Origin: Deuterostichococcus epilithicus
Taxonomy: Eukaryota > Chlorophyta > Trebouxiophyceae > Prasiolales > Stichococcaceae
Direction: 5' to 3'
DNA length: 64,000 bases
Assembly (NCBI GenBank): GCA_033439295.1
Contig: JAVTLE010000011.1
Coordinates: 1,550,082 to 1,614,081 of the forward strand
The notes below the pieces were generated by a model. It made no database searches. It had not been told where the DNA came from and saw nothing but the letters and a program-made list of their open reading frames with translations. Positions 27,388-51,272 of this stretch are shown here, piece by piece; position 1 is the stretch's first letter, and each line of letters begins with the position of its first letter. A program made the translations under genes and the position numbers.

Positions 27388-30300
27388 TTACTTGTCCCAC
27401 ACCTCCAGCTTGCCCGGCTGCTGCGTGTCAATCTCCACATTGGACTTGTCGCTGCTCAGCGCCTGCCCCACGTCCTTGGCACCCTCGAACGCCTCCTGCG
27501 CTGCCGCCTACACAGCGACCATACATCCATTTGCCAGCAACGGGATCAGCCACAGGATTGAAAAAGAAGGTCCACATCGAGGGCTTCAGCAGGTGACACT
27601 GGCCTGCGGCCTGACTTGACTAGGGCATTGCTAAAGCTGCAGTGTGTCCTTGCACAAGTGCATGAGCAACAGTAGAGTACTGTTTCACCACTGCGCTGCC
27701 ATTATTTGAACCGAATTCGCATGCCTCACCTGCACATGCTCGCTGGTGACGCTTGCGCCATCCTTGATGCTCTGCAAGATACGCTCGCCCGCTGTCTGCG
27801 CAGAATCACCGCTGTCCGCGCCGCTCGAGGACTGCGCGGTGCTGCCACCGCCTGACACAGCACCGTCAATCGCCTGTCCCGCCGACTCGCCTGCCGACGC
27901 GGCCTTGTCTCCGGCCTCCCGCCCGACTGACTGCGCCTTGCTGCCAGCGGACTCGGCCGCCTCACCGGTCGTGTGCCCAGCGGACTCGGCCTCGCCCGCA
28001 CCGGAGTCTGCCGTCTGGCCGACCTTGTCGGCGGCTCGGTCGCCTGCCGAGCGCAGCGAGTCAGCTCCACTATTCGCCGCATCCGCGGTCGCATCGCCGG
28101 CGTCCTCTGCCTTGCCAGCTGCAATGTCAGCCGCTTGCTTCGCCTTGTCACCGGCCTGTTTGCCTACCGACTTTGCCTGTGCATGATGGATACTCAGCTC
28201 AGCTTGGCTCAAATCCAAGAATCTGGTCGTGTTCAGTCATCAGCAACAATTTGTTTTCAAACCGGGGACGTACTGGACCGGCAAATGCCCACGGCAAACA
28301 GTATCCACAGCTGCATGTGTGGGTTTTTGCTGCGTCACCTATCTCGTGAACGTGATGATATAATGTGCAAGAGCGCACCTGCTGCTGGCCAGTCTTGGAG
28401 TAGTCCTCAGCCGCCTGGCCAGACTCCTCCGTCTTGTCCGCTGCCGTGTCTGCGGCTTGCTCGATCGTCTCGCCTGCCTGACCACCAGCATCCTTCGCCT
28501 GCGAAGAAGGTGGTCAGAGTTGGAAACGGACAGAAGCTGATTTGACCTTCCAAAATTCGAAGAAGCTGCAACGCCTTGTGTGGATGCGCAGAGTACTCGA
28601 TTTGCTGCCGCATGCATATGCAGGTCCAATTCCAAGTCAAAAGGAAGAAGTCTGCGGCGGAGCTGGCAGGTGTGCGATGTCTGATGCACATGCACCACAG
28701 CGCATGTCGGATGTGTGATAGCACTGGGCCAGCAGCGCACCTTCTTTGCGCCGGTCTTGGAGTAGTCCTGCGCAGCGGCGCCGGCCTCCTCCGTCTTGTC
28801 GGCGGCAAGGTTGGCGCCCTGCCGGGCGGCGTCGCCGGCCTGCTGCCCCGCAGTTTTGGCGCCCGCCTACAGCAGGGAATTGAACCGTGGTTCACACATT
28901 TTCGAGTCAAAAGGGAGGCAGTTCTGCCTGCAACACTGTATTGTTGCCTCCACACAGTCTGCCTCCACCCGTACCAGCCCTCACCAATCTGCTGCATTTA
29001 CTTGTCTACTATGTGCGCGCGCCTGGTGGAACACGCCAGGCATTGCCACCACTGCTACCCTCCACGCGCGCAGGGCAAATACAACTGAACAGGCGCACCT
29101 GGCCACGCTTGGCGAGGTCGCCTGCGGTGTCCTGCGCCTGCTTGGAGTACTCGCCAGCCTTGCTGTGCGCTGTGTCCGCCGCGTCCTGCACCTGCATTTT
29201 GGAGGAAGCGTATGTGAACGACACTGCAGAGAGGGTTTTCGACTGATCAACCCACTTCTGTGACAAGAGGTAGCTGAGAGCAGGCTGAGAGCTGGCTCTG
29301 CATATGCAGGACACTGCGAGGCTCTGGCAATCCTGTGATTTCGTCAGAGCTGTCCCAGTGACAGTTGTAGCATCTCGGCACCTGGCTGCCCAGCTGCTCG
29401 CCGGCGCGCTTGGTGGTGTCAGATGCAGATTCTGCGCCGCGCTGGATGGCATCTGTGGCCTGGTCCGCGCCGCGGTTCGTCTGCACATGAAACCGTGGCG
29501 CAGTGCTGTTAGCTTGCCGGGGGCGGAGCTGTAAGCACGACACAATGAGCAGCATCAAATTTCCGATGGCACCGTCACTTGCACGTTGCTGCGGCTGCCC
29601 GCTGACTGCAGAAAATGCCAGCACCCAAACAATGCAGAGCTTGCATCAGGGCGCAGCGGCAGCACTGGCGCTCAACCTGGAACACTCAGCTGGAAGGCCG
29701 ACTCAACCCGACTCGGCTACGTAGAGAAAAGGGCACCTGCTCCTCAATGGTGTCGGCGGTGTCGTGGATGGTCTTGCTGGCGCGGTCTGCAACATCCGGG
29801 GCCTTGTCGGCCGCATCCTGAGCGATGTCCTCCGCCTGCAGTGGACAGGGTGTTGCGGTCAGAACTCCCTGTGACCTGGACCTCAGCTGAGGGGGTGCTG
29901 GGTGACGCACGGTCTGCCGTGCTACTGAAGCATACAAATCCATGTTCTGCTTGCCCACAGTATGCCATGGGCTTGACCCTGCTCTCTGTCCCAAAGGGGG
30001 GCACAGGTGCAGCCAGTCTTCGGACCTGTGCAGCTGAGGCACTGTGATGCTGCATGTCAGTTTGACTAGATCTGACACTTGACAGGCAGTCGAACGAGCG
30101 TTCAGACTGCAGCAGGCCCAGCCGCCGCGCAGCCGCGGTCGCGGAGCTGCACAGCCGTGCAGGGTGGCGGCCCCTGAACACAGATCCCTTGCGCACACAG
30201 GTCTGCCGGCGCACCTGCTTGGAGGCGACATCGGCGACGCGCTTGGTCTCTTCGCCCACTGAGTGCGCCCCCGCCTCGATCTTGGCGGCCGCCTTGTCGG

Positions 30301-33300
30301 CTGCCGGTTCCACATTGGCCCGCACATCGCCCGCCACATCGTCCGCAACATCGGCGACGCCCGCCACCGCGTCCTTCGACGCCTGAGCAGGTGATATGCG
30401 TCGCTGAGCATTGCCGTTGGCGGGGACTGCAATGATGTCGTCGGGTGTGTGCGCTGTGCATTGCCGCTGATGGAGCTTTAGAAATCTGGCTCAATGGAGT
30501 CTGTGTACCATCAGACTGCTCTGGACGACTCGTTTTTCTTGTGCAAGGAAGACATCCGCTCTATCAACCTCCCTTAGGGGGGAGGGGCGCCCTGAACAAA
30601 GGAGACAGTCCTGGGTCCCCGAATCGTAACCTGCAACCTGTCAGATACTCGCAGAAAATACCAAACTGAAAATATGCGCCCTGCCCTACATGAGGGTCTG
30701 CTGGGTGTGCATGGAAGAGTGCTAATATTAGCCTGAATCAGTGAAGGTGCTTTCCTCAGAGCGTTGACAGGACAATTTGTCCTGCAAGGGTACAGCTCAC
30801 AGCAGGGCTGCAGCAGGGGTTGTGGCGTGGGGCCTGCGAAGTTCTGCCTGACACACCCACCAAGTCCTGTCTTTTTTAAGGCGCAGCCCACTGCAGGGCG
30901 GTGAGTCGTCCAGGCCAATCATTGCAGAAGCCACGGAACTCTTGATCAGGCGCCGCACCTGACCGACGCTGGCTGCGACATTCTTGAGGTCCTCCGAGGC
31001 GGCATCGGCTGTGGGAATTGCCGCGTCGCCCACCTGCTTCGCCTTCTCCTCGATCGGCGTCGCCAGCTTGTCCGCCGCGGGCTCCGCATTGGCCTGCGGC
31101 TCCAGAAGCTCAAGGGTGAGGAGGGGTTTCATGCACTGGTGGCAGGAAGGCGACCGGCAGCGCGCTCGGCAGCATGAGGCAACACATCTCGGTGGTGTAC
31201 AGGACATGGCTTGGTGCACAGACAGGCCCGTCACATGGAGGCGGCACCTCGCTGCTCAGCCCACGCGTCAGCCACACGACAGAACGCTTGCTGCTGCTGC
31301 CGCCGCCAAAGGCACACCTCGATGTCTTTGGCGACATCCTCCACGGTTTTGGACACATCCGCCGCCGCCTGGCGGGTGGAGTCGCCAACGGCGCCCGCCA
31401 CATCGGTGATGTCCCGCGCCCCCTTGTCCGCTAGCTCGGGCACGTTCTGCTCCACTGACGCGGCCGCCGCGTCCACCTGCTTCGACGCTGCGTCCGCCGT
31501 GGGCTGTGCGTTCGCCTGCAGCACAGCATTTGTGGGTTTCGCGGTAAGGTTGGCCACTAGCTTCATCTGACGAGGGTAGAGCCCTGCGAAGTTCGACACT
31601 GTAACGAAACGCGCTGCCATGACCTTGGCCTGCTTGTAAGGACGCCGGCATCTCGTTCCCCAACACACAGGGGCGCCCCCAGCAGTTTCGGTGCACGAAC
31701 CGAGGACCCTCGGCGATCCGTGCGCTGTTTGATCGAACGACATCTGATAACATCCTATGTTGCACTGCAGCGGGCGCACCTCCGCATCGTGGGCGACATC
31801 CTCGATGACCTTGGACACGTCCTGCGTCGCCTGCACGCCCGCCTGGCCGGTGGCATGCGCCACTCGCTCGATGTCCTCTGATGCAGCGTCCACGGTCGCG
31901 ACCGTCTTCTCTGCCGCCGCATGCCCTGCAGCCTCCACCTTTGACGCCGCCTTGTCCGCCATCGGCTCCGCGTTCACCGCCACCTGCAGACGAGCAATCC
32001 AGCTGTTTCATGCTCGCACTTCTTGAATGAAAGACACACATTCACACGGGGTCGGTCTGGCAAGGACGAACAACCGTTGAGGAGCAGGTCGACACCTCGC
32101 AGACTTTAGAGTTCAAATCCCCAGGCAGACAGTTTAAGTGCATCACTCTAGCGCAGGGTCTCCTCACCGTCTCGGCCTGACGCACGATGACGTCAGAGGC
32201 CTGCTGCGCATAGTCGTCAGCGCGCGCCGTCACTGTCGCGGCGCCCTCGTTGATCTTGTCCGACAGCTGCTGCGCGCGGTCCGGGGTCTCGGTGGCCACA
32301 CGCGCCGCGACGCGGTCGATGGTGTCGTCGACACGCTGCTCGATGTCCTGCGCGTCCTCCGCCACCTGCCATGCCTACGAGGTTGTGGCAGCACGGCATC
32401 TGAGAACCTGCTCTCAGGATCTGATCTGGAAGTTGTCCTCTCGCCATCTGCCACACCTCCGCGGTTGTGCTGTAACGAGAGCATTGGGATTGACTGATAA
32501 TTAGATCTTGCCAGGGTACTCCGGGGCACAGACAGCAGACCGCAGTTGGATTGCCAGAGCACCACATCATCACAGCCAACTTGATAGACTGCACAACTCG
32601 AGTGAGTCCAGGCACTCATCAGCCTGGCCACCTGCCTCACCTCTACAGCAGCGTGGAAGATCTGACGACAGGTCCCCTGCTGAGGGATCATGCTTGTACG
32701 GTGACTCATGCTGTGGAAAAGAGCAGAGTACTGCAGCACTGTGCAAATCACACCTTCTTCTGGGCGAAGTCAGTGGCCTGCTGCACCGCGGGCTCCACGT
32801 TGGTCGCCACCGTGTGCGCCGCGTCCTGGATCGCCTCACCCGCCTGGTCTGCGGCCTCCTCGATGTGCGGCGCCGCCTGACCATATGTCATAAACCCAAT
32901 TCAGCGCTTGCCAACAGCACATGACAGGCGCTGAATGGACAGCAAGCCCTCAGGTGGTGATGCACCAGCTTGTTGCTCAACTTGGAGTCGTTGAGTCGTT
33001 TAACCGAGCTCAACCAGCCTTGATGCATGGTCCCCATGCGCACCTTGCGTGCGGCCTCTGGCAGCTTCTCAATGGTCTCGTGCACCTTCTTCACCGCCGG
33101 CTCAATCTCGTCCGCCAGCAGCCTGCACACAAGGGGCAAGATGTTCCTCTCAACCTGCATGTCAGCAAGGCTAATGGATCGTGAGGCTGCAAGCCTTTCA
33201 CAATCACATCCTGCTTGCTCCAGTGCAATTACCCGCATTGCCCATGCTTCGGCAGGTCCAGCGCTTTGCTGATGCGTGAGCAGACACCAGGCAGGCATGC

Positions 33301-36300
33301 TTCCTGACTCTCAGCATGCACCCTGTATATGAAAGGCAACGCACCAGATCTCGCCCTCCAGGTCCTTCGGCACGCGCTGCAGCCGCACGGCATTGCGCAG
33401 GGAGGCTGGGAAGCGCTCTGCCAGTGGGCCAAGCCGCTTAGCCAGCTCCCGAGCCTGCAGGTTGCACCCGATCGTCAAGGGCTGCTCAAACCTTGCCTTG
33501 GACCAGGTGCAGGAATGGGGTCGGGCACCTCTAAACGTTCTGCATGTCTGCCATGCAGGGCAGCAGGTGCAGTCGGTGATGCACAGAAGTCAGCATCTTC
33601 ATGCATCTTTATGCCCGCAATGCCCCGGAGGAGGTTTCAACTCGGACGAAGAAGACTGCACGACACCAAAGATCACCTGCGGCTCCAGGTCGGAGGCGAA
33701 CTCGTGGGCGCGCGGCTTGAGCTGCTGGTTCACAAAGGCATCCGCGATGGGCTCCGCGTTCTCACCAATGATGTGCGCCGTCTCGTTGGCCTCCTTTGAC
33801 AGCGCCTCCACCGTCTGCGGCGCCTGGCATGATTGAGGGCAGAAAACCTCAATGCAACGTCCTGAAATGCTCCTTCAATCACCCGAAACCTGTGTGCACG
33901 AGATGAGCAGCTCGTTCCACACAGCACGGCAGCCAGGCCAGGCAGGGTGACTGTGTGACATGTTGTTCAGGCAGTGTGGCTTGTGAAGCTTTTTGGCTCA
34001 CCGTCTCTGTGATGATCGAGGCAATGGGCGCCACGTACTGTGTCTTGACCAACTCAGCAGTGGGCTCCGCCTGTGGAGGGCATGGCGCTACATCAGCTGA
34101 CGTGGGTATGGAATGTTTCGGAATGATGCACATAGCAGCTCCCACATGTCTCCTGTTGTGCCTTCCCCGCGGCTGCACAGTATGGATATGCCACAGGCCG
34201 CTGCTACAAACCAACATCTGACAAAAGAGCCCTCCACAGCATGTTTCGATCTGCACCTGGTCAGCGATGGCCTGGGCGACAGGTATGATAGCCTCCGAGG
34301 TGATACGGTCGGCCGCATACTCAGCCTGCCCCGCAGCGTCCGCCACCGCTGGCTGCAGCACCTGTGTCACAGGTGGCATGCTGCGGACTGAGCTGCCGTG
34401 ACAACGCTCGCAAACGGTTCCTGGGCTGTGGATGGCATGGAGCCCTTTGGGACTGAGGCTGCAGCTGGCGGCACGGGCAAATAGATACGGTACAGCATAT
34501 AAGTCCGCACCTTCTCAGTGAGGACCTTTGCCTGCGGCACAGCATTCTCAGCGACATCCTTGCCGATGGTGCGCAGCTGGCCTGCCACCTCCTGCGAGGC
34601 TGGCTCCACCTGGTTTGCGAACTCCTGCGATGCAGTCAGTGTTGGCAGGGTCAGCGCAAGCTTGGCACTCCATATGTAGCCAGTCGACCGTGCAGGGCAG
34701 GGACCGGGCGCAGTACAGGCGGCCTGTATTTTTCACGGCTCGTCAAGAGTGTTCTGTCATGGAAAGCTACGATGACCATTTGTGTGTGTCAGCGTTCGCC
34801 ATCCCCCTGTCTTCTCATCTTCACATGTGCCGCTATTTCTGCAGGTGCCCAAGCAGAACGGTGCCCAGTCAGAACTCAAGTCCTCATCTGCCAGATCTAA
34901 CATTGCTTCCAAGCGACTGGGCCATCACACACCTGAGCGCCCGGCTTCAGGATGTCCCGGGTGATCTCCTTGGCCGTCGTGTCCAGGCGCTCGGCTGCAT
35001 GCTCCGCTGCAGGCTGCATCGTCTCCTGCGTCAAGCGCTCTGCTGCCGGCACCGCCTGCACAGGGCACGAGCAACGAGTTTCTATATTGAGGCTTGTCCG
35101 AAACCAGAGTTGAGTGTGGCGACACTCTTGAGGCGCGCAAGCCGCAACTACTGGTCAGCCAGCCCCTGCGCTGCACCATGCATTTTGCACTTGTGTGGTG
35201 TTGCAGCCAAGGTCAGCCAGGCACCAGACGGTCAAGAGCGTTGACTGCCTTGATTGCGCGGCCCATTGGAAAACTGTCCATTGGTGAACTGACCATTGGT
35301 AAACTGTCACAAAACAGACAAATTTCCGAATGAACATCTCACCTCCGCCTTGACCTTGTCAGCCACAGGCTGGATGATCTCGCTCTTCACCTCGTCCGCC
35401 GTCGGCTGCGCCTGTGTGCAGCAATGATGCAAGAGCACCCTTACAACTGCAATTGCCTGCAGCATCACAGCCAGTGGCACCCTCTGCGGCCTGAAACATT
35501 GCTGTACAGTAGAGAGCATGCAGCAGGCGCCTAGCAGCTGCCAGTAGCAGCACACTAGACTAGGGTTTGCGAAAGGGCGTGCCTGTTCTGCCAGCTTCTG
35601 CGCCTCGGGCAGCAGCACCTCCTGCGTCACACGCTGGGCGCCGTCCTCCACCTGGCTCGCCAGCCGCTCCGCGCCCGGCTGCAGCTGCCCCTTCGTGAGC
35701 TTCTCTGCGGTCGGCACCGCCTGGATGGCAGGAGAGGGCTCGTGAACTTATTGCTATTTCGTGGGACTGCCGCCCATGTCCTTGCACAGGAGAACATCCG
35801 CACAATTGCTGTGCAGCAGGCGCCCTGCTACGGCCACTCACACACAGGTGAGAGACAACAGCGGCATGGTGGGAAATGCGTCAGCAGCACACCCGATCAC
35901 GATGCGGCAAAAGCCCGGGACAGACAACCACGAGGAGTCTCACAAATAGGACTGCTCAGACACCTGCTCGGCCAGTTGCTTGGCGGGCTGGCGGATGTAC
36001 TGGCTTGTGGCGTCCTTGGCCATCGGCTCGGCATTGTCAGCCACCTTCTGCGCCAGCGGCTTCAGCTGCTCCTCCGCCACCCGCTCCGCCATGGCGTTGC
36101 CTGCAAAGCAAGGAAACGAAGGTGAGCACACCAGGCTCAATAACAAACAGATGTTCTGTTTGATAGGTGGAAGCCTGCACGCTGGCTGCAATGACATAGG
36201 TTCGATGCAGTCTGCAGACATGTGGCCAGAGTACCCTCCCAACATCGACCGACATTGCATGGAGCCCTCAGTCAAGTCAAATCAAATTTACCATCTTGTT

Positions 36301-39300
36301 CAGACATGTTGTGATTTTCTTGTGTGTGGGCGCTCCAGCACTCACCCTGCTCGTCGACGTAGGCAGCAGCGCTCTCGCCGCGGCTACGGAGCTCGTAGGC
36401 GGCGTTCTCCGCGCTGTCCGGCACCTGCTTTGCCGCCGGCTTCAGCTGCTCCTGTGTGAACTGCTGCGCCGTAGAGTCCACCTGTGCACAATCAGATCAA
36501 AGGCATCGGCAAAGGCATCGGCAAAGCAGGCTCGTCACAAAACGTCAACTCTTTAGCGTTTCTGAAAAACAGACGGTAATGGTGGGAACCATGCGACTAC
36601 CGCCTCACAGGACGACATAAGTGGACTGGCTGCTAAAGTTCAACTGTATAACTGCAGGTGTCTCCTCCTTGACGCCTTCTTCTGAAACGACGAGCCATAG
36701 GGCAGAGGCATAGCACTCAATATGTGGTCGCAACGAAACACACCTGCTTGGCAAACTGGTCCGCTGCGGGGCGGACCGCTCCATCTGTCACCTTCTTGAC
36801 CTGCGGCACCGCCTGTTCCTGCACCTGCAAATTCCCAGGCAGGAACAGTAAGGGACGAAAATGCCATGAGGAAGACACACAGATAGGGCTGAAACTGCTG
36901 AAGTTGCGCTGGACAGCGATGGCGGCCCGGCTTCTGAAGGCATGTGCAGCGCGCTGCAGTGGACAGGTGTTGCCTTGGTGAGCATCTGCGCCGCCAGGGC
37001 GTGCATCTGTGCAGCCACTGCCATGCTCCTTGCGGCAGGCCAGCTGTGCTGCAACCCAGCTGCGCTGCAAAGCCACCACAGCCACCTCTGCAATCTGCCA
37101 CTTGTGCAAAACAGAAAACAGGTGAAGAGGCGCGGCGCGCCTGCTTGGCGGCACCCTGGACCTGGGCGTCGGCTTGATCGGCCACCTGCTGCGCCGCAGG
37201 GCCCACCTCCTGTGCCACCTCCTGGATGCCGTCGTTCACCTGCAGCAGGGATTGCCACGGGTGAAGGTGCCAGAATCCACACTAAGGCGCAAGTATGTCT
37301 GGTCCTAGCTGCCAGTGGCGGACGTCGCTTTGCGTGAGCCACCGCCTAATCATGCACCCACCTCGCAAAGACCTCGCACCTAGCCATCGGCAACACCATG
37401 ACTGGGTGTACTGTGCAGGCCTGCCCGCATGCCCGCAGCCAAGCGCTGTAATGCTGCAAGGCGGCACAGCACACGCACCTGGCCTGCCGCATCCAGCTCC
37501 ACCTGGGCCAGCTGGTCCGCGATCGGCTTGATCTGCTTGCCGCTCTCCTTCACCTGCTTGGCCACGTCCTGCGCGGAGTCGCCCAGCTGCGCAATGTTGT
37601 CCTGCGCCTGGTCACCCACCTCCCCGATCTGCACCAGTTGCATGTCCAGTCGGCTCCAGCTCGCTAAACAGGAACCGATACGGCCAGAGACACCCCAGAG
37701 GTGCTGCCAAACAGCCCAGGTGCTTTCTGAGAGCGCAGCAGTACAAAGGGCAATTGCCTTTCCGTTCGAATGCCGATGCATCTCAAACCCGCAACTGCAA
37801 CCATGCAGATTGTCAGTGGAAACAGACTGACCTGCTCCGCGGCATTGTCGCCCGCCTCCTTCAGCTGTTTCTCCGCGTCCGCGCCGGCGTCACGGCCCTG
37901 GCCTGCGAGGTCGTCCGCAGCGTCCCTCGTCTGGTCGCCTGCCTTGCTGATCTGCAAGACGAAAACTCGGCCATGAGATGCACCGCTTGGAAACTGCTTC
38001 ACCTGAAGGCCGACAGCTGACTACGGGCTAGCCAGCCGATCCGCTGGTCAGGCTCGCCCCTCACAACATTTGCAGCGCTTGTCCAGGGTGCGGGCTGCTC
38101 ATTTCAGTCCCAGCCAGCTCGCGCAGGTTGGCCAGCAGGTTCAGGATCCACGCTGACCTCGTCGGCGGCGGTGTCACCAGCCTTCCGCGCCCGCTGCGCT
38201 GCATCGCCGCCCGCCTCGCGCCCCTGGCTGGCCAGGTCGCCCGCAGTCTCCTTCGCCTGCGCACCCGCGCGGCCGATGCCGCCTGCCGCCGCGTCGCCGG
38301 CCTTCTCCGCCTCCGCCTGCGCCTGGCTGCCCGCCTGGCGGCCCTGGTCCGCTGTATGAAGTGGAGGATGAGGTCGGGACTCCTTTGATGTGTGGCAGCT
38401 TGCTGATTACATGTTCCTCTACGGCCGGGTAGTCTGCTGTGAGGGGTACAGCTCCTTGCAGGTTGCAGGTATATTCTAATTGTGCTGTGCGCACATGGAC
38501 CATACATGCATGCCCTGGATGGGCACAAAGCCGAAATCTTCCGATGCGAGCAAGTATCAAAATCCGTGCCTGCTGTGCCAGCAGCAGACTGCGCCTGCTG
38601 GCCGGCCTGGCTGACGCCGCCAGCAGCGGATGCGGCAGCGTCCTGCGTCCTGCCCGCAGCCTGGTCACCCGCCTGGCGCACCTGCATCACATTAGACGCC
38701 CTGATCAAGTCTTGCACCACGGCCAGTCTTCAAAAAGCAGTGCTCAGCCTGCACTCCAAGGCATGTGAACTGCAGGGCTTATCTACACCCGCACAAGCTG
38801 CCATAGTTCCCTGGGAAGCCAACTCTGACCCCTTGTGCTTGGCCATGTCATGCCGTGTCTCGCTTCACTGGCGAGACAACGTGCCTGCGAGCCCGTCTGC
38901 GAGCCCGCCTGCTGTGCCGCGCCACCAGCCTGGCCGGCCACCCGCTTCGCGGCGGCGCCGGCGCTCTGCGCCTGCCCCGCTGCAGCGCCGCCCGCCTGCT
39001 GCGCTGCAGACTGGCCGGCTGCACCGGCGCCTGCCTGTGACGAGCTGCCGCTGATGCCCGGCACATTGAGGCCCGTCCAGTCCTGACGCTTGGCCTCCTG
39101 CAGGGTACAAGAGCTCGAACCTGATGACCGATGTGCTTTCGTTGAAGAAGTTTTGATGATGATATTCTGGATTGCCATGTCAGACTGAGTGTGTGGCAAT
39201 TGGAAGGAACGGTCGTTGGGTTGGCTGATCGTGCGGCTGTGCGGCGTGCTCCGAATGATGGATATTCATGATGGAGCAGCTGTCGACGTGCTTCTGCCGT

Positions 39301-42040
39301 ACCTGGAAGATTGTCGCCAGGTCGCGCAGCGCCTCGGCGCGGCGCCGGCGGACAGCCTTCTCCACAGTCTTGTCGCCCAGCACCAGGTCGCACACCTGCG
39401 GTGTTCGGTGCCCAATCCTTGAGTTTAATGATCTGTGTGAACCAGTTGTTGCGTTCCAAAAATGCAGAAGCATGTCGGCAGATGTGCAGGGGAATGAGGT
39501 GGGGATGCTGCTGGCGGGACAGCAGGATGCTCAGCAGTCGACGGGTGCTGCGCAGTCTGCCAATGAGATGCCAGATGGACATCCAGACCTGGTCGAGAGT
39601 GTTCTCGGTGTCGTACACCAGCACGCGCCACACGGAGGTGATGGTCAGCCCCATCCGATTCTCCAGGTAGGCTGCACGCGAGGCGCAAAGGCTCAGCACA
39701 GCTGCGGCTGCTTGCACACAAGGGCATCTCAAGAGCCTGCATGGCCCGGCCCAGTGCACATGCCGCAATGAGACCAGGCATGGCATTGCGTGTGAGGTGC
39801 TGCGCCGCGACACTGACTCGCGATCAGGGCAAGCCAGTCAGGCCGCCACACCGTGCATTCCAGTGCAAACAGGAAGGTGACACGTACCGGCACCCTCGAT
39901 GGGGTCCATGGCACCGCCATTGGACCCGTTGGTCTCCATGTCCCGCTTCATGAGCTTCAACGAGATGTATGCCTTGCCCGCGTTGGCCTGTGGGAAGCAT
40001 GTCAACCAATCGGCTCGACTGCACCTGGGGGTTAGATGGCCTATGGGAAGCGGTCAAACAGTCGTTGACTGCGCCTGAATTGGGTTGACAGCACCAAGGT
40101 GGCCAGCGTTGGCCAGCCCGGGTGTTTGCGCATCAGAGCCCGGTCTCCTGGTCTCTTAGCATTGACTGTTGACGCCAGGCGCTGTGCACCCATGGCAGGC
40201 GGTCCGGGAAGGCGCGCACCAGTGTGGTGGCGTTGTGGTACTTGCGCGCGAACCATTCGCCGACGACATTGCCGAGCCATGGCTCCGCCTTGCGGTCGTA
40301 CATGTAGCCGATGACATGCAGCAGCGGCGCGCCAAAGGCGTGGTTTGCAAGCCGCTGCGCCTCTTCCACCATCTGCGACGTTTCATTAGAGCCACCAGTT
40401 AACCTCTTATTTAAATTTTCAAGATTGGTGGTGGGTGTCAGCTGGTAGATGTGCACCTCTGCGCGAGGCTGGCTGAACATCTGCAGCACCGTCACACAGA
40501 GGTGAGGCAGCAAGGACGGGAATGTATGGATGTGAAGAACAGCAGCTGAAGGATCGACAGAATCGACATTGACGGGAGAAAGCGTGCCTGCATGCGGAAG
40601 CCGGCGCGATCGCCGTCCACGTATGGCTGCAGCCGCTGCTTCAGCTTGTCCGCCAGCATGTGGCTCCGTTCCTGCAGCATGCCAGCTTCATCAGGTCGGT
40701 TCATTGTGAGTCTGGACTGGACATCAGACACAGAAGCGATGCCAGGGACCGTCTCACCTCAGACGACAGTGTTGGAGGTACTCGTAAAAGGCTCTCGTCG
40801 TGCAGCCACAGGGCTGAGACCATGCCAGACTCACTTTCAAACAGTGCGCACCTCTTGCAGCACAGTCAGGCGCTCCTTGACGGAGCGGTTGTCGCTGTCT
40901 GGCGCAGCATAGTCTTGCGCCACCACGATGCCCGCCGCAGCCGCCATGGCCACCTGCGCGTGAAGGAGTAGGTGAGTGGTCAAGCTGTGCGGGCACTCAG
41001 TGCCTGTGCTTTTGGGATTTGCTTCCACAGGCTGCCGCTCTCCAGTGTTTTGTGATGGCAGATCAAGCCTGTGATGTCGTGGTTTGTTTGCACAGTATGA
41101 GTCTCAGGGACTGTCAGCTCGGCGTGCAAGCGCCTGCCAGCTCGGCTTGCGCAACCTACAGCTTGCAGACGGTGTGAATGCCAGCGCTCGAACTCCACCA
41201 TAACCCAGACCAGCAGCACGCACCTGGCCGACATACTCCTCAAAGTAGTCGCCGGCGAGCGCCAGTCCCACTGCCTGCGCCGCGCTCACCAGCTGCTGCT
41301 CGTGAATGCCTGCGTACCGCAATATTCGTTTCAGTGCCGCGCTGCGCTGCAATGTCTGCGCTTGGCTGCTGTGGCCACGGCATCAATGTGGCTGCACGAT
41401 CAGTGAAATAGGGTCCTGGACATCGTCAGCTGACGGCCAGCGATAGTTGACATACAGGATCAGCAAGGCCAGAGAGGCACCTGAGTATCCGATGTCGTCG
41501 TACTGCTGCCGCGCCTTCGAGTTCGTCAGCACGCCGTACGCCTCCTTCAGCGGCTCCAGCTCCTCTGCGGCCTCCGTGGGCGTGTCTGCGACCTGCTTGA
41601 CCTGTGCGTCGTGGCATCGCAAATTGAAGGCCTATGAGCTTCTGCAGACGTGACATTGGCAGCGCCGGCTGGACTGTCTGCGTCATCATGAGCAGTGGCG
41701 TGCCTTCCATCATCAGCCCTGATGAGCAGGCAGTGCATTCAGCTTCATCCGACTTGCGATGCGTGGCAATATCATGTCGCGTGATGAGCAGCTGGGTCTC
41801 GAAGACTTGCTGCCGCACCTCTGCCTTCCGCTCATTGAAGGCGGCCTTGATTTGCGACTTGGACGCATCCTCGGCGACGCCGAGCGTGTCGTATAGCTGC
41901 ATGTCCTTTGGGTGGCCCTCTCCGCCGTTGCCGCCACTGATGCCCGCGGGCAGCTTGCTGGTGACCGCCTCCTTCATCTCCCGCAGCTTGGCGCCCGCGG
42001 AGCTGTTGCTCAGCTCCGCCTTGGCCACCTCTCCGGGCAT
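27388..42040 (-). CDS. J-like/DnaJ-X protein fused to a giant LEA-like helix array (1,793 aa)
   Basis: Forty exons join in frame (5,382 nt). Start is ATG at 42040 (MPGEVAKAELSN); stop TAA at 27388-27390. Exons 1-3 encode a J-like domain: YDTLGVAEDASKSQIKAAF and then LKEAYGVLTNSKARQQYDDI, but the HPD tripeptide is missing. Exons 4-9 match the plant/fungal DnaJ-X domain: FEEYVGQVAMAAAAGIVVAQ, ADKLKQRLQPYVDGDR, EEAQRLANHAFGAPLLHVIG, TSVWRVLVYDTENTLDQ and RRAEALRDLATIF. From exon 10 on, about 1,360 residues are Ala/Glu/Lys/Gln/Asp-rich amphipathic repeats without Cys, resembling group 3 LEA proteins or apolipoprotein helices (ADKAASKVEAAGHAAAEK, AEDYSKTGQQQ). The first part implies a relative of Hsp40 co-chaperones; without HPD, Hsp70 activation is unlikely. 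The array suggests membrane or protein protection under drying or freezing (inference). Five introns are GC-AG. Confidence 0.85.
27388..42040 (-). other. Exon map of the J-like/LEA gene
   Basis: Exons 5' to 3' on the minus strand: 41819-42040, 41481-41592, 41224-41309, 40852-40953, 40588-40671, 40190-40372, 39888-39987, 39589-39671, 39303-39395, 38885-39097, 38570-38681, 38158-38351, 37832-37951, 37479-37628, 37141-37239, 36744-36824, 36346-36481, 35964-36100, 35583-35720, 35343-35411, 34933-35055, 34511-34624, 34257-34352, 34002-34070, 33677-33823, 33345-33454, 33044-33122, 32754-32876, 32168-32365, 31780-31983, 31318-31515, 30959-31093, 30215-30382, 29737-29835, 29382-29480, 29099-29191, 28741-28866, 28379-28498, 27730-28176 and 27388-27507. 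Thirty-four of 39 introns are phase 0. GC donors follow the exons ending at 40588, 38885, 38570, 37141 and 35583. The least certain donor is at 40190 (TGG then gtgcac). Confidence 0.8.
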
Positions 42041-50501: not shown

Positions 50502-50619
50502 GTTCCTCCCGCATGCTGGCCGACATGTCTTGAAGCTTGTCAGGCATGACTGGGGCGACTGCTGCACCCGCACCAACCTCGCGCTTCCCATTGTACTTGA
50601 GCTTTTCTGCAGCCGCCAT
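50373..50619 (-). CDS. Possible small two-exon gene (54 aa), doubtful
   Basis: Minus-strand exons 50578-50619 (MAAAEKLKYNGKRE) and 50373-50495 (VGIIQRFRHRLSALHLQNRI, KRLQDEATSAAAAKSDYDAY, stop) join in phase 0 across a 82-nt intron with GT-AG ends. The product would be a short basic helical protein. It starts about 10 bases from the villin-headpiece gene in divergent orientation. No homologue recognised; competes with the plus-strand model at 50075-50501. Confidence 0.28.
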
Positions 50620-51272
50620 GGTGCGCAGCTGTGCGCATCGTGCGGCAGGGCCCTGCTACGAATGAACTGAGTTGCGCTGCAGCATCCGACGCCCTCCGGC
50701 GACGCCGCAGGTTTACGGAGCTTTTGGCAGAGTCTGAGGAGCGCCGGCGGCGCATCAGGGCATTGCGGACGCCCGGCCGCATCCTGGAGCGCCGACCCTC
50801 AGCGCTCGTTCTGCCAGACCCTGTGCTTTCCGCCGCGCTGCTTAAGCGGCTCGACGGCATCACGGCTGCCGAGCAGTGGCGTGCGGGCGAGACCAGCGCC
50901 CACAGCATCGAGGCCCACTGCGACAGTGTCAGCTCCGATGCCAGCGCCACCAGCACTCCAAGCACGCCGCCCAACGCAGAGGCGTCAAAGATGCCAGAGT
51001 CTCCTTCCCAGCCTGGCAGCCCGGCGCCGTGCGCCGCTGCCAACCGCGGCGAGAATTCTGCAGGCACAGCGCGTCAGCAGGCCAGCGTTCACCACCCGTA
51101 CAGCAGCCTCGTCTGGGGCGTGCAGTGGCCACCCGATGTCGACGCGGCAAACCGGGAGCGACACATGTCGGCGGCCGCCTTTTGCAGTGTGTTCGGCATG
51201 GCACGCTGCCAGTACGATGCACTGCCAGTGTGGAAGAGGGTGCAGCTCAAGAAGCGGCACAATCTGTTTTAA
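50613..51272 (+). CDS. Villin-headpiece-domain protein, 5' end uncertain
   Basis: The C-terminal 36 residues (HMSAAAFCSVFGMARCQYDA, LPVWKRVQLKKRHNLF, stop TAA) fit the villin headpiece: hydrophobic core FxxVFGM, LP.WK, the basic LKK cap and a C-terminal Phe as the last residue. The preceding HPYSSLVWGVQWPPDVDAAN matches the N-terminal headpiece subdomain. Headpieces bind F-actin in villins, but there are no gelsolin repeats here: the rest (about 150 residues) is an Arg-rich helical stretch (RRRRRFTELLAESEERRRRI) and a Ser/Thr/Pro-rich linker. Actin binding is therefore inferred. The frame is open from an acceptor-like CTGCAG at 50612 and has no early ATG, so at least one upstream exon is missing. 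The basic KKRH in the cap differs from the usual KK..GLF. Confidence 0.7.
   Translation, partial: PPWCAAVRIVRQGPATNELSCAAASDALRRRRRFTELLAESEERRRRIRALRTPGRILERRPSALVLPDPVLSAALLKRLDGITAAEQWRAGETSAHSIEAHCDSVSSDASATSTPSTPPNAEASKMPESPSQPGSPAPCAAANRGENSAGTARQQASVHHPYSSLVWGVQWPPDVDAANRERHMSAAAFCSVFGMARCQYDALPVWKRVQLKKRHNLF

Follow-up and report, generated by a model that had tools for sequence, protein, structure and literature searches.

The minus strand of the window, by which we mean the whole 64,000-nucleotide stretch that was analysed, carries a multi-exon gene whose predicted product begins with a J-like domain and a DnaJ-X domain and continues into a long array of 11-residue repeats (Table 1). 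A nested cluster of non-LTR retrotransposon copies begins about 0.7 kb downstream of the gene (window positions about 8.4-26.7 kb). Between 8400 and 26700, the copies are inverted and nested and contain endonuclease and reverse transcriptase frames, as seen among the 25 of 46 repeat pairs listed. Comparison of one reverse transcriptase frame with the genome gave at least 92 matches (81 of 292 candidates scored), and on each of the 16 contigs (of 21) that have scored matches, these are confined to a single stretch no longer than about 31 kb. The excerpted source describes the Zepp element of Coccomyxa subellipsoidea as forming one cluster per chromosome, probably the centromere (PMC3446292). 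The retrotransposon matches scored here likewise form a single cluster per contig and, by this analogy, the gene may adjoin a centromere. Elsewhere in the window, an open frame with a terminal villin headpiece domain (42.9 bits) lies on the plus strand at 50601-51269, and no Rfam family reaches its gathering threshold anywhere in the window.

Table 1. Features of the gene, in window coordinates
Feature	Position	Strand	Details
Whole coding span	27388..42040	-	40 exons, 1,789 aa; ATG 42040, stop ending 27388
N-terminal region and J-like domain	41224..42040	-	Exons 1-3; domain at residues 49-109, without HPD; Pfam DnaJ 35.3 bits (cut-off 27.8, draft head)
Exons 1-3	42040-41819, 41601-41481, 41309-41224	-	
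DnaJ-X domain	38885..40953	-	Exons 4-10; residues about 176-353; Pfam DnaJ-X 116.8 bits (cut-off 29.4, draft head)
Exon 10	38885..39097	-	Joins head and tail: DnaJ-X end and first 55 repeat residues
Tail block 1	37141..39097	-	Exons 10-15 (as delimited, includes about ten residues of exon 16); rich in Ala/Gln/Gly, with repeats of 11 and 40 residues
Tail block 2	32754..36824	-	Exons 16-28; Pro-punctuated 11/12-residue repeats, 23-residue pairs
Tail block 3	29737..32365	-	Exons 29-34; 22/44-residue repeats, exons 30-33 alike
Tail block 4	27388..29480	-	Exons 35-40; Ala/Gly/Asp/Ser-rich 11/18/40-residue repeats, exons 37-39 alike; stop
TGTAA	27149..27153	-	235 nt past the stop

The gene model is corrected by a related protein

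A draft built from splice sites and open frames comprised 41 exons and 1,807 residues. Comparison with P0001, a related protein of 315 residues (sources jgi and mmetsp; the MMETSP transcript frame is labelled "complete"), turned this draft into the 40-exon, 1,789-residue model used here. Specifically, a 24-nt exon (40480-40457) was removed and the 3' end of exon 6 (exon 7 of the draft) was cut back by 30 nt, because P0001 has neither the small exon nor the longer form. The sequence-only reading had placed 40 exons in one frame between 27388 and 42040, and these points hold, the ends being the stop and the ATG of the corrected model; its length of 1,793 residues gives way to 1,789. P0001 is identical to the gene product at 192 of 265 aligned residues and covers exons 1-7, which are consistent with it from residue 13 onward. 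It ends after exon 7 with its X domain incomplete. We infer that its last residues are a retained intron; its "complete" label would also fit a short protein.

In the corrected model, the acceptor is AG in all 39 introns, and the donor is GT in 34 and GC in 5. Intron lengths range from 149 to 576 nt, and 34 of the 39 introns are in phase 0. The GC donors, a high share, follow exons 5, 10, 11, 15, and 19 (starts 40587, 38884, 38569, 37140, and 35582), and the one after exon 5 is supported by P0001. GC3 of the coding sequence is 0.84, compared with an intron GC of 0.56, and the three frames contain 1 (the terminal stop), 27, and 33 in-exon stops. Downstream of the coding span lies TGTAA, which we take to be the usual polyadenylation signal of green algae; on the minus strand between 43500 and 26900 there are two further copies, both intronic (38411 in intron 11 and 35445 in intron 19).

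The head has a J-like domain without HPD and a DnaJ-X domain

Both domains recognized in the head by the sequence-only reading score above their Pfam cut-offs (Table 1), as measured on the draft head, which is 18 residues too long. The end of the DnaJ-X match, residue 371 of the draft, is residue 353 of the corrected model, and its last five residues lie in exon 10. HPD, through which J domains contact and stimulate Hsp70, is absent from all three minus-strand frames of 42300-41001, and P0001 likewise lacks it. Since this motif is missing, stimulation of Hsp70 and an Hsp70-based function are unlikely, and the head is better termed J-like. As such, the earlier description of the head as chaperone-related is weakened, while the matches to the J and X domains stand.

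A genome-wide search with the DnaJ-X profile gave five matches, two of them within this gene, and located two other DnaJ-X places. Upstream of both lie J-type frames that contain the motif, in the sequences HPDKNPNN and HPDKNPDD (in unspliced genomic frames). The loss of HPD looks particular to this gene and would predate its split from the source of P0001. Searched exon by exon in the genome, the head gave 14 matches, comprising 10 to this gene, 3 to the two other DnaJ-X places, and 1 weak J match. Downstream of another DnaJ-X place of the genome, we also observed a long Gln/Pro/Gly-rich open frame (L030 5621-6601). In the PDB, 36 sequences match the head at E ≤ 0.1, all within residues 35-141, and none of them matches in the X domain. 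A single-sequence model of P0001 has a mean pLDDT of 47.8, with block means of 74-78 at residues 51-90 and of at most 70 elsewhere.

A protein search with the head and the start of the tail returned two proteins at E ≤ 0.001 among 7997 scored, namely P0001 and P0002. The latter shows 29% identity across 35% of the query, and its precomputed Pfam domains include DnaJ-X and no J domain. In agreement with the sequence-only reading, a search for relatives of the head with lengths of 994-3162 aa found none among the 7997 candidates scored. Among 8000 candidates scored for the middle of the tail, none was a relative, and in exon-by-exon genome searches all 13 matches of the tail middle and all 7 of the tail end are this gene itself.

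The tail is an array of amphipathic 11-residue repeats

The tail starts at residue 365 and comprises 1,425 residues. It is free of Cys, the only one in the 1,789-residue model being residue 319, as had been noted from the sequence alone, and is slightly longer than the roughly 1,360 residues then counted. Its composition is dominated by Ala (24%), Gln (10%), Asp (9%), Glu (8%), and Gly (8%), with 0.1% Trp; aromatic residues make up 0-2.7%, depending on the block. The pI is 4.5, the GRAVY -0.59, and the net charge -0.07 per residue, being negative in each of the four blocks.

We found that the hydrophobicity of the tail peaks at a period of 3.667, or 11/3, residues (z 38; 16 periods tried, 100 shuffles) and that sequence identity at lag 11 has a z of 13 (200 shuffles). 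The head, taken as a comparison, gives a z of 0.8 at 3.667, and lag 11 is outside its eight strongest lags. An 11-state model scores 597.5 on the tail, compared with 110.0 ± 10.3 (highest 125.9) for 12 shuffles, which were given 3 restarts and 15 iterations as against 6 and 25 for the real tail. The model makes 31 phase jumps along the 1,425 residues. In its learned 11-mer, three polar pairs alternate with two apolar pairs, a polar pair coming first, and a single apolar residue closes the unit; Pro reaches 25% at one position. The period peak is 3.667 in three blocks and 3.75 in block 2, and an apolar face at 11/3 residues per turn is present in all four. In addition, the mean hydrophobic moment (33-residue windows) is 0.280, compared with 0.115 ± 0.007 in 50 shuffles. 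In block 2, identity at lag 23 has a z of 8.3, and 19 of 31 Pro-to-Pro gaps measure 11, 12, or 23 residues. Exon 40 lies outside the repeat (score -5.9 under the repeat model). Altogether, the tail is best called a predicted giant 3-11 amphipathic helix.

When exons 11-40 are compared in pairs, 31 of 435 pairs score higher than 99% of 600 shuffled pairs, against an expectation of about 4; the most alike are 30/31, 37/38, and 12/13. The phase-0 exons and the similarity of neighboring exons suggest that the tail grew by exon duplication.

Head and tail very probably belong to one gene

The joint between head and tail was examined with an 11-residue model trained on exons 13-40 only. The repeat part of exon 10 scores 9.1, compared with -2.5 ± 2.5 for its shuffles (0 of 2000 as good), and exon 11 scores 10.3, compared with -0.9 ± 2.3, and beats all 2000. 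The head shows no such fit: 131 of 500 shuffles were as good for the N-terminal 45 residues and 57 of 500 for the rest of the head. When both exons of a junction were excluded from training and each was decoded separately, 18 of 30 tail junctions kept the 11-residue register, where chance would give about 2.7, and 7 showed a shift of 4; the remaining 5 show shifts of 8, 8, 7, 10, and 3. The shift is 4 at junction 10/11 and 0 at junction 11/12.

The sequence-only reading had named two separate genes as the case that would undo the fusion. Under this alternative, exon 10 would be the end of a short J-like/DnaJ-X gene and a neighboring repeat-protein gene would begin near 38687, the two having been misjoined. 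Reading through the end of exon 10 indeed stays open for 33 more residues before a stop, an in-frame ATG lies just 5' of exon 11, and both introns at the joint, 10 and 11, are of the GC-AG type. The TGTAA at 38411, the shortness and "complete" label of P0001, and the judgment, in the excerpted literature, that joins of J-X and dehydrin parts in grasses are not fusions point the same way. However, exon 10 already holds 55 residues of the same array, and intron 10 measures 203 nt, so that two UTRs would have to fit into the roughly 100 nt that separate the stop of the read-through from the new ATG. In addition, the TGTAA sits past exon 11, not between exons 10 and 11, and the P0001-backed donor of exon 5 is a precedent for GC donors in this gene. 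We consider a misjoined pair highly improbable. Despite the GC-AG introns 10 and 11, one gene is likelier than two, and a single gene very probably spans head and tail.

The tail resembles, but does not match, known 11-residue repeat families

The assignment of the tail to LEA group 3, made from the sequence alone, was not borne out. LEA_4 (PF02987) has no match at E ≤ 1 in three protein pieces of the gene's product, and an exon-by-exon genome search with this profile gave none at this gene and two elsewhere, both below the cut-off. Compared with the strict group-3 11-mer consensus, none of 1,415 positions fits as many as 8 of its 9 classes; 7 positions fit at least 7, compared with a mean of 1.6 and a highest value of 5 in 300 shuffles. 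The tail shares with LEA group 3 an 11-residue amphipathic repeat that is Ala-rich and hydrophilic. It differs in lacking a LEA_4 match, in departing from the strict motif, in its position with 25% Pro, and in carrying a small residue where the consensus has one of its Lys positions. We do not assign the tail to LEA group 3, although its pattern leans that way.

For the apolipoprotein character also claimed for the tail, the profile matches fall below their cut-offs. Apolipoprotein (PF01442) gives 49.0 and 52.9 bits on two tail pieces, under the cut-off of 90, and the profile is unspecific, with sub-cut-off matches (E ≤ 1) in 13 of 14 control genomes. Its exon-by-exon search does not list this gene. 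Apolipophorin-III (PF07464) reaches 33.3 bits on the first tail piece (cut-off 36.3) and 12.8 on the second. The resemblance to Apolipoprotein is one of helix type and says little about descent.

No perilipin family is among the Pfam matches at E ≤ 1. Nevertheless, the tail resembles perilipin 4 (Plin4) in its 11-residue repeats, which extend over about 1,000 residues or more, in its low hydrophobicity, and in its few aromatic residues, for which the excerpted Plin4 paper gives 0.2% in its table and 0.6% in its text. The hydrophobic moment of the tail is near the 0.257 of the same table, the two values having been computed with different programs. The tail differs from Plin4 in being acidic, Ala/Gln-rich, and Pro-punctuated in its middle, in its super-repeats of 40/23/22 rather than 33 residues, and in its charged fraction (0.27, compared with 0.15 in the Plin4 excerpt). 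A net positive polar face of the Plin4 type is found in none of the four blocks. Charge is the main predicted difference between the two.

DnaJ-X proteins and fusions in print

The yeast proteins Caj1 and Djp1, which we take to be DnaJ-X proteins, their plant counterparts, and the two other DnaJ-X places of this genome share with the present gene a J-type domain followed by a Pfam DnaJ-X domain. Here, in contrast, HPD is absent and the X domain is followed by the 1,425-residue repeat tail. In the published excerpts, Caj1 is a phosphatidic acid-binding protein found in part at the plasma membrane (PMC9798423), and Arabidopsis atDjB7 is termed a Djp1 orthologue (PMC10421020).

The sequence-only reading knew of no DnaJ-X protein with such a tail, a statement weakened by models from rice, Brachypodium, and Setaria. 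According to the excerpted sources, rice DHN1, a protein of about 600 aa, combines DNAJ, DNAJ-X, and dehydrin domains, and one clade contains 26 DHNs of this architecture (PMC5411031); Brachypodium Bdhn9, of 508 aa, has the same three domains, as do proteins of rice and Setaria (PMC8709310). A further excerpt holds that such models in grasses are not expressed as fusions (PMC6364937). As far as these excerpts describe them, the grass models likewise join a J/DnaJ-X part to a drying-related disordered part, but they carry a dehydrin domain and measure about 500-600 aa, whereas here there is an 11-residue helix array. A J-X head on a drying protein is an idea already in print, and the same excerpts are a warning on such joins. 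A literature search lying mostly outside subscription journals found no earlier fusion of DnaJ-X with an amphipathic-helix array and, judged by titles and the start of abstracts, no algal protein that combines DnaJ-X or DnaJ with parts of LEA or apolipoprotein type.

A coat or shield with a targeting head is the favored reading

The sequence itself shows that the frame is joined, that HPD is lacking, and that the tail is an amphipathic array of 11-residue repeats, and we propose that these properties together describe a J-like/DnaJ-X head fused to a giant 3-11 helix tail, forming a coat or shield with a targeting head (probability about 0.45). The tail would be largely unfolded in water and would turn helical on lipid or another apolar surface, or upon drying, becoming a long, weak, multivalent coat or shield. 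Rather than recruiting Hsp70, the head would now position the coat or anchor it, perhaps at a membrane, by analogy with the phosphatidic acid binding and partial plasma-membrane location of Caj1 in the excerpted account. Counting against this reading is the acidity of the tail (-0.07 per residue); in the Plin4 excerpt, shifting the net charge of the 33-mer from +1 to -1 eliminated targeting to droplets, except where hydrophobicity had been increased. The searches that gave no long head relative (7997 scored) and no relative of the tail middle (8000 scored) count against it as well.

Three other readings bear on the tail; these and the readings above overlap, and their probabilities need not sum to 1. 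The tail might be a LEA-type desiccation or cold shield that is unfolded when hydrated, folds on water loss, and separates proteins and membranes, with the head targeting stressed complexes. The Ala-rich amphipathic array, its GRAVY, its lack of Cys, and its scarcity of Trp are in keeping with this, the apolar positions of the learned 11-mer can be overlaid on those of the group-3 consensus when compared by eye, and more positions fit at least 7 of 9 classes than in any of the 300 shuffles. With no LEA_4 match at E ≤ 1 in the product, none over the cut-off genome-wide in the exon-by-exon search, no 11-mer fitting 8 or more classes, and a Pro-rich block 2 unlike LEA group 3 as commonly described, we regard this shield as unlikely. 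A lipid-droplet or membrane coat like Plin4 or the apolipoproteins, acting in growing or starved cells and not in drying, would account for the Plin4-like moment and length, the Pro-punctuated 23-residue repeats of block 2, and an Apolipophorin-III score just below its cut-off on the first tail piece. The Apolipoprotein scores would also fit, but they stay under 90 bits with an unspecific profile whose exon-by-exon search omits this gene, and the tail is net acidic with nearly twice the charged fraction given for Plin4 in the excerpt; this coat seems to us quite unlikely. Finally, the tail could be a passive spacer or scaffold that sets distance or volume only and binds no surface. Little sequence constraint would be expected on a long Ala/Gln/Asp array, and the 8000 candidates scored hold no relative of the tail middle; yet an 11/3 apolar face is found in every one of the four blocks, and we consider a mere spacer improbable.

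Returning to the coat or shield with a targeting head, it is possible, though on balance doubtful, that the gene encodes one genuine, expressed protein whose J domain, having given up Hsp70, has become the docking head of a giant helical coat, a self-targeting shield to which the grass J-X-dehydrin models may be an independent parallel. If transcripts confirm the fusion, it would offer a direct test of a degenerate J/DnaJ-X module as an Hsp70-independent targeting head, a role that, to our knowledge, nobody has tested. In that case, one more lineage would have an amphipathic helix of perilipin 4 size, and the reality of the grass J-X-dehydrin joins would become a question again.
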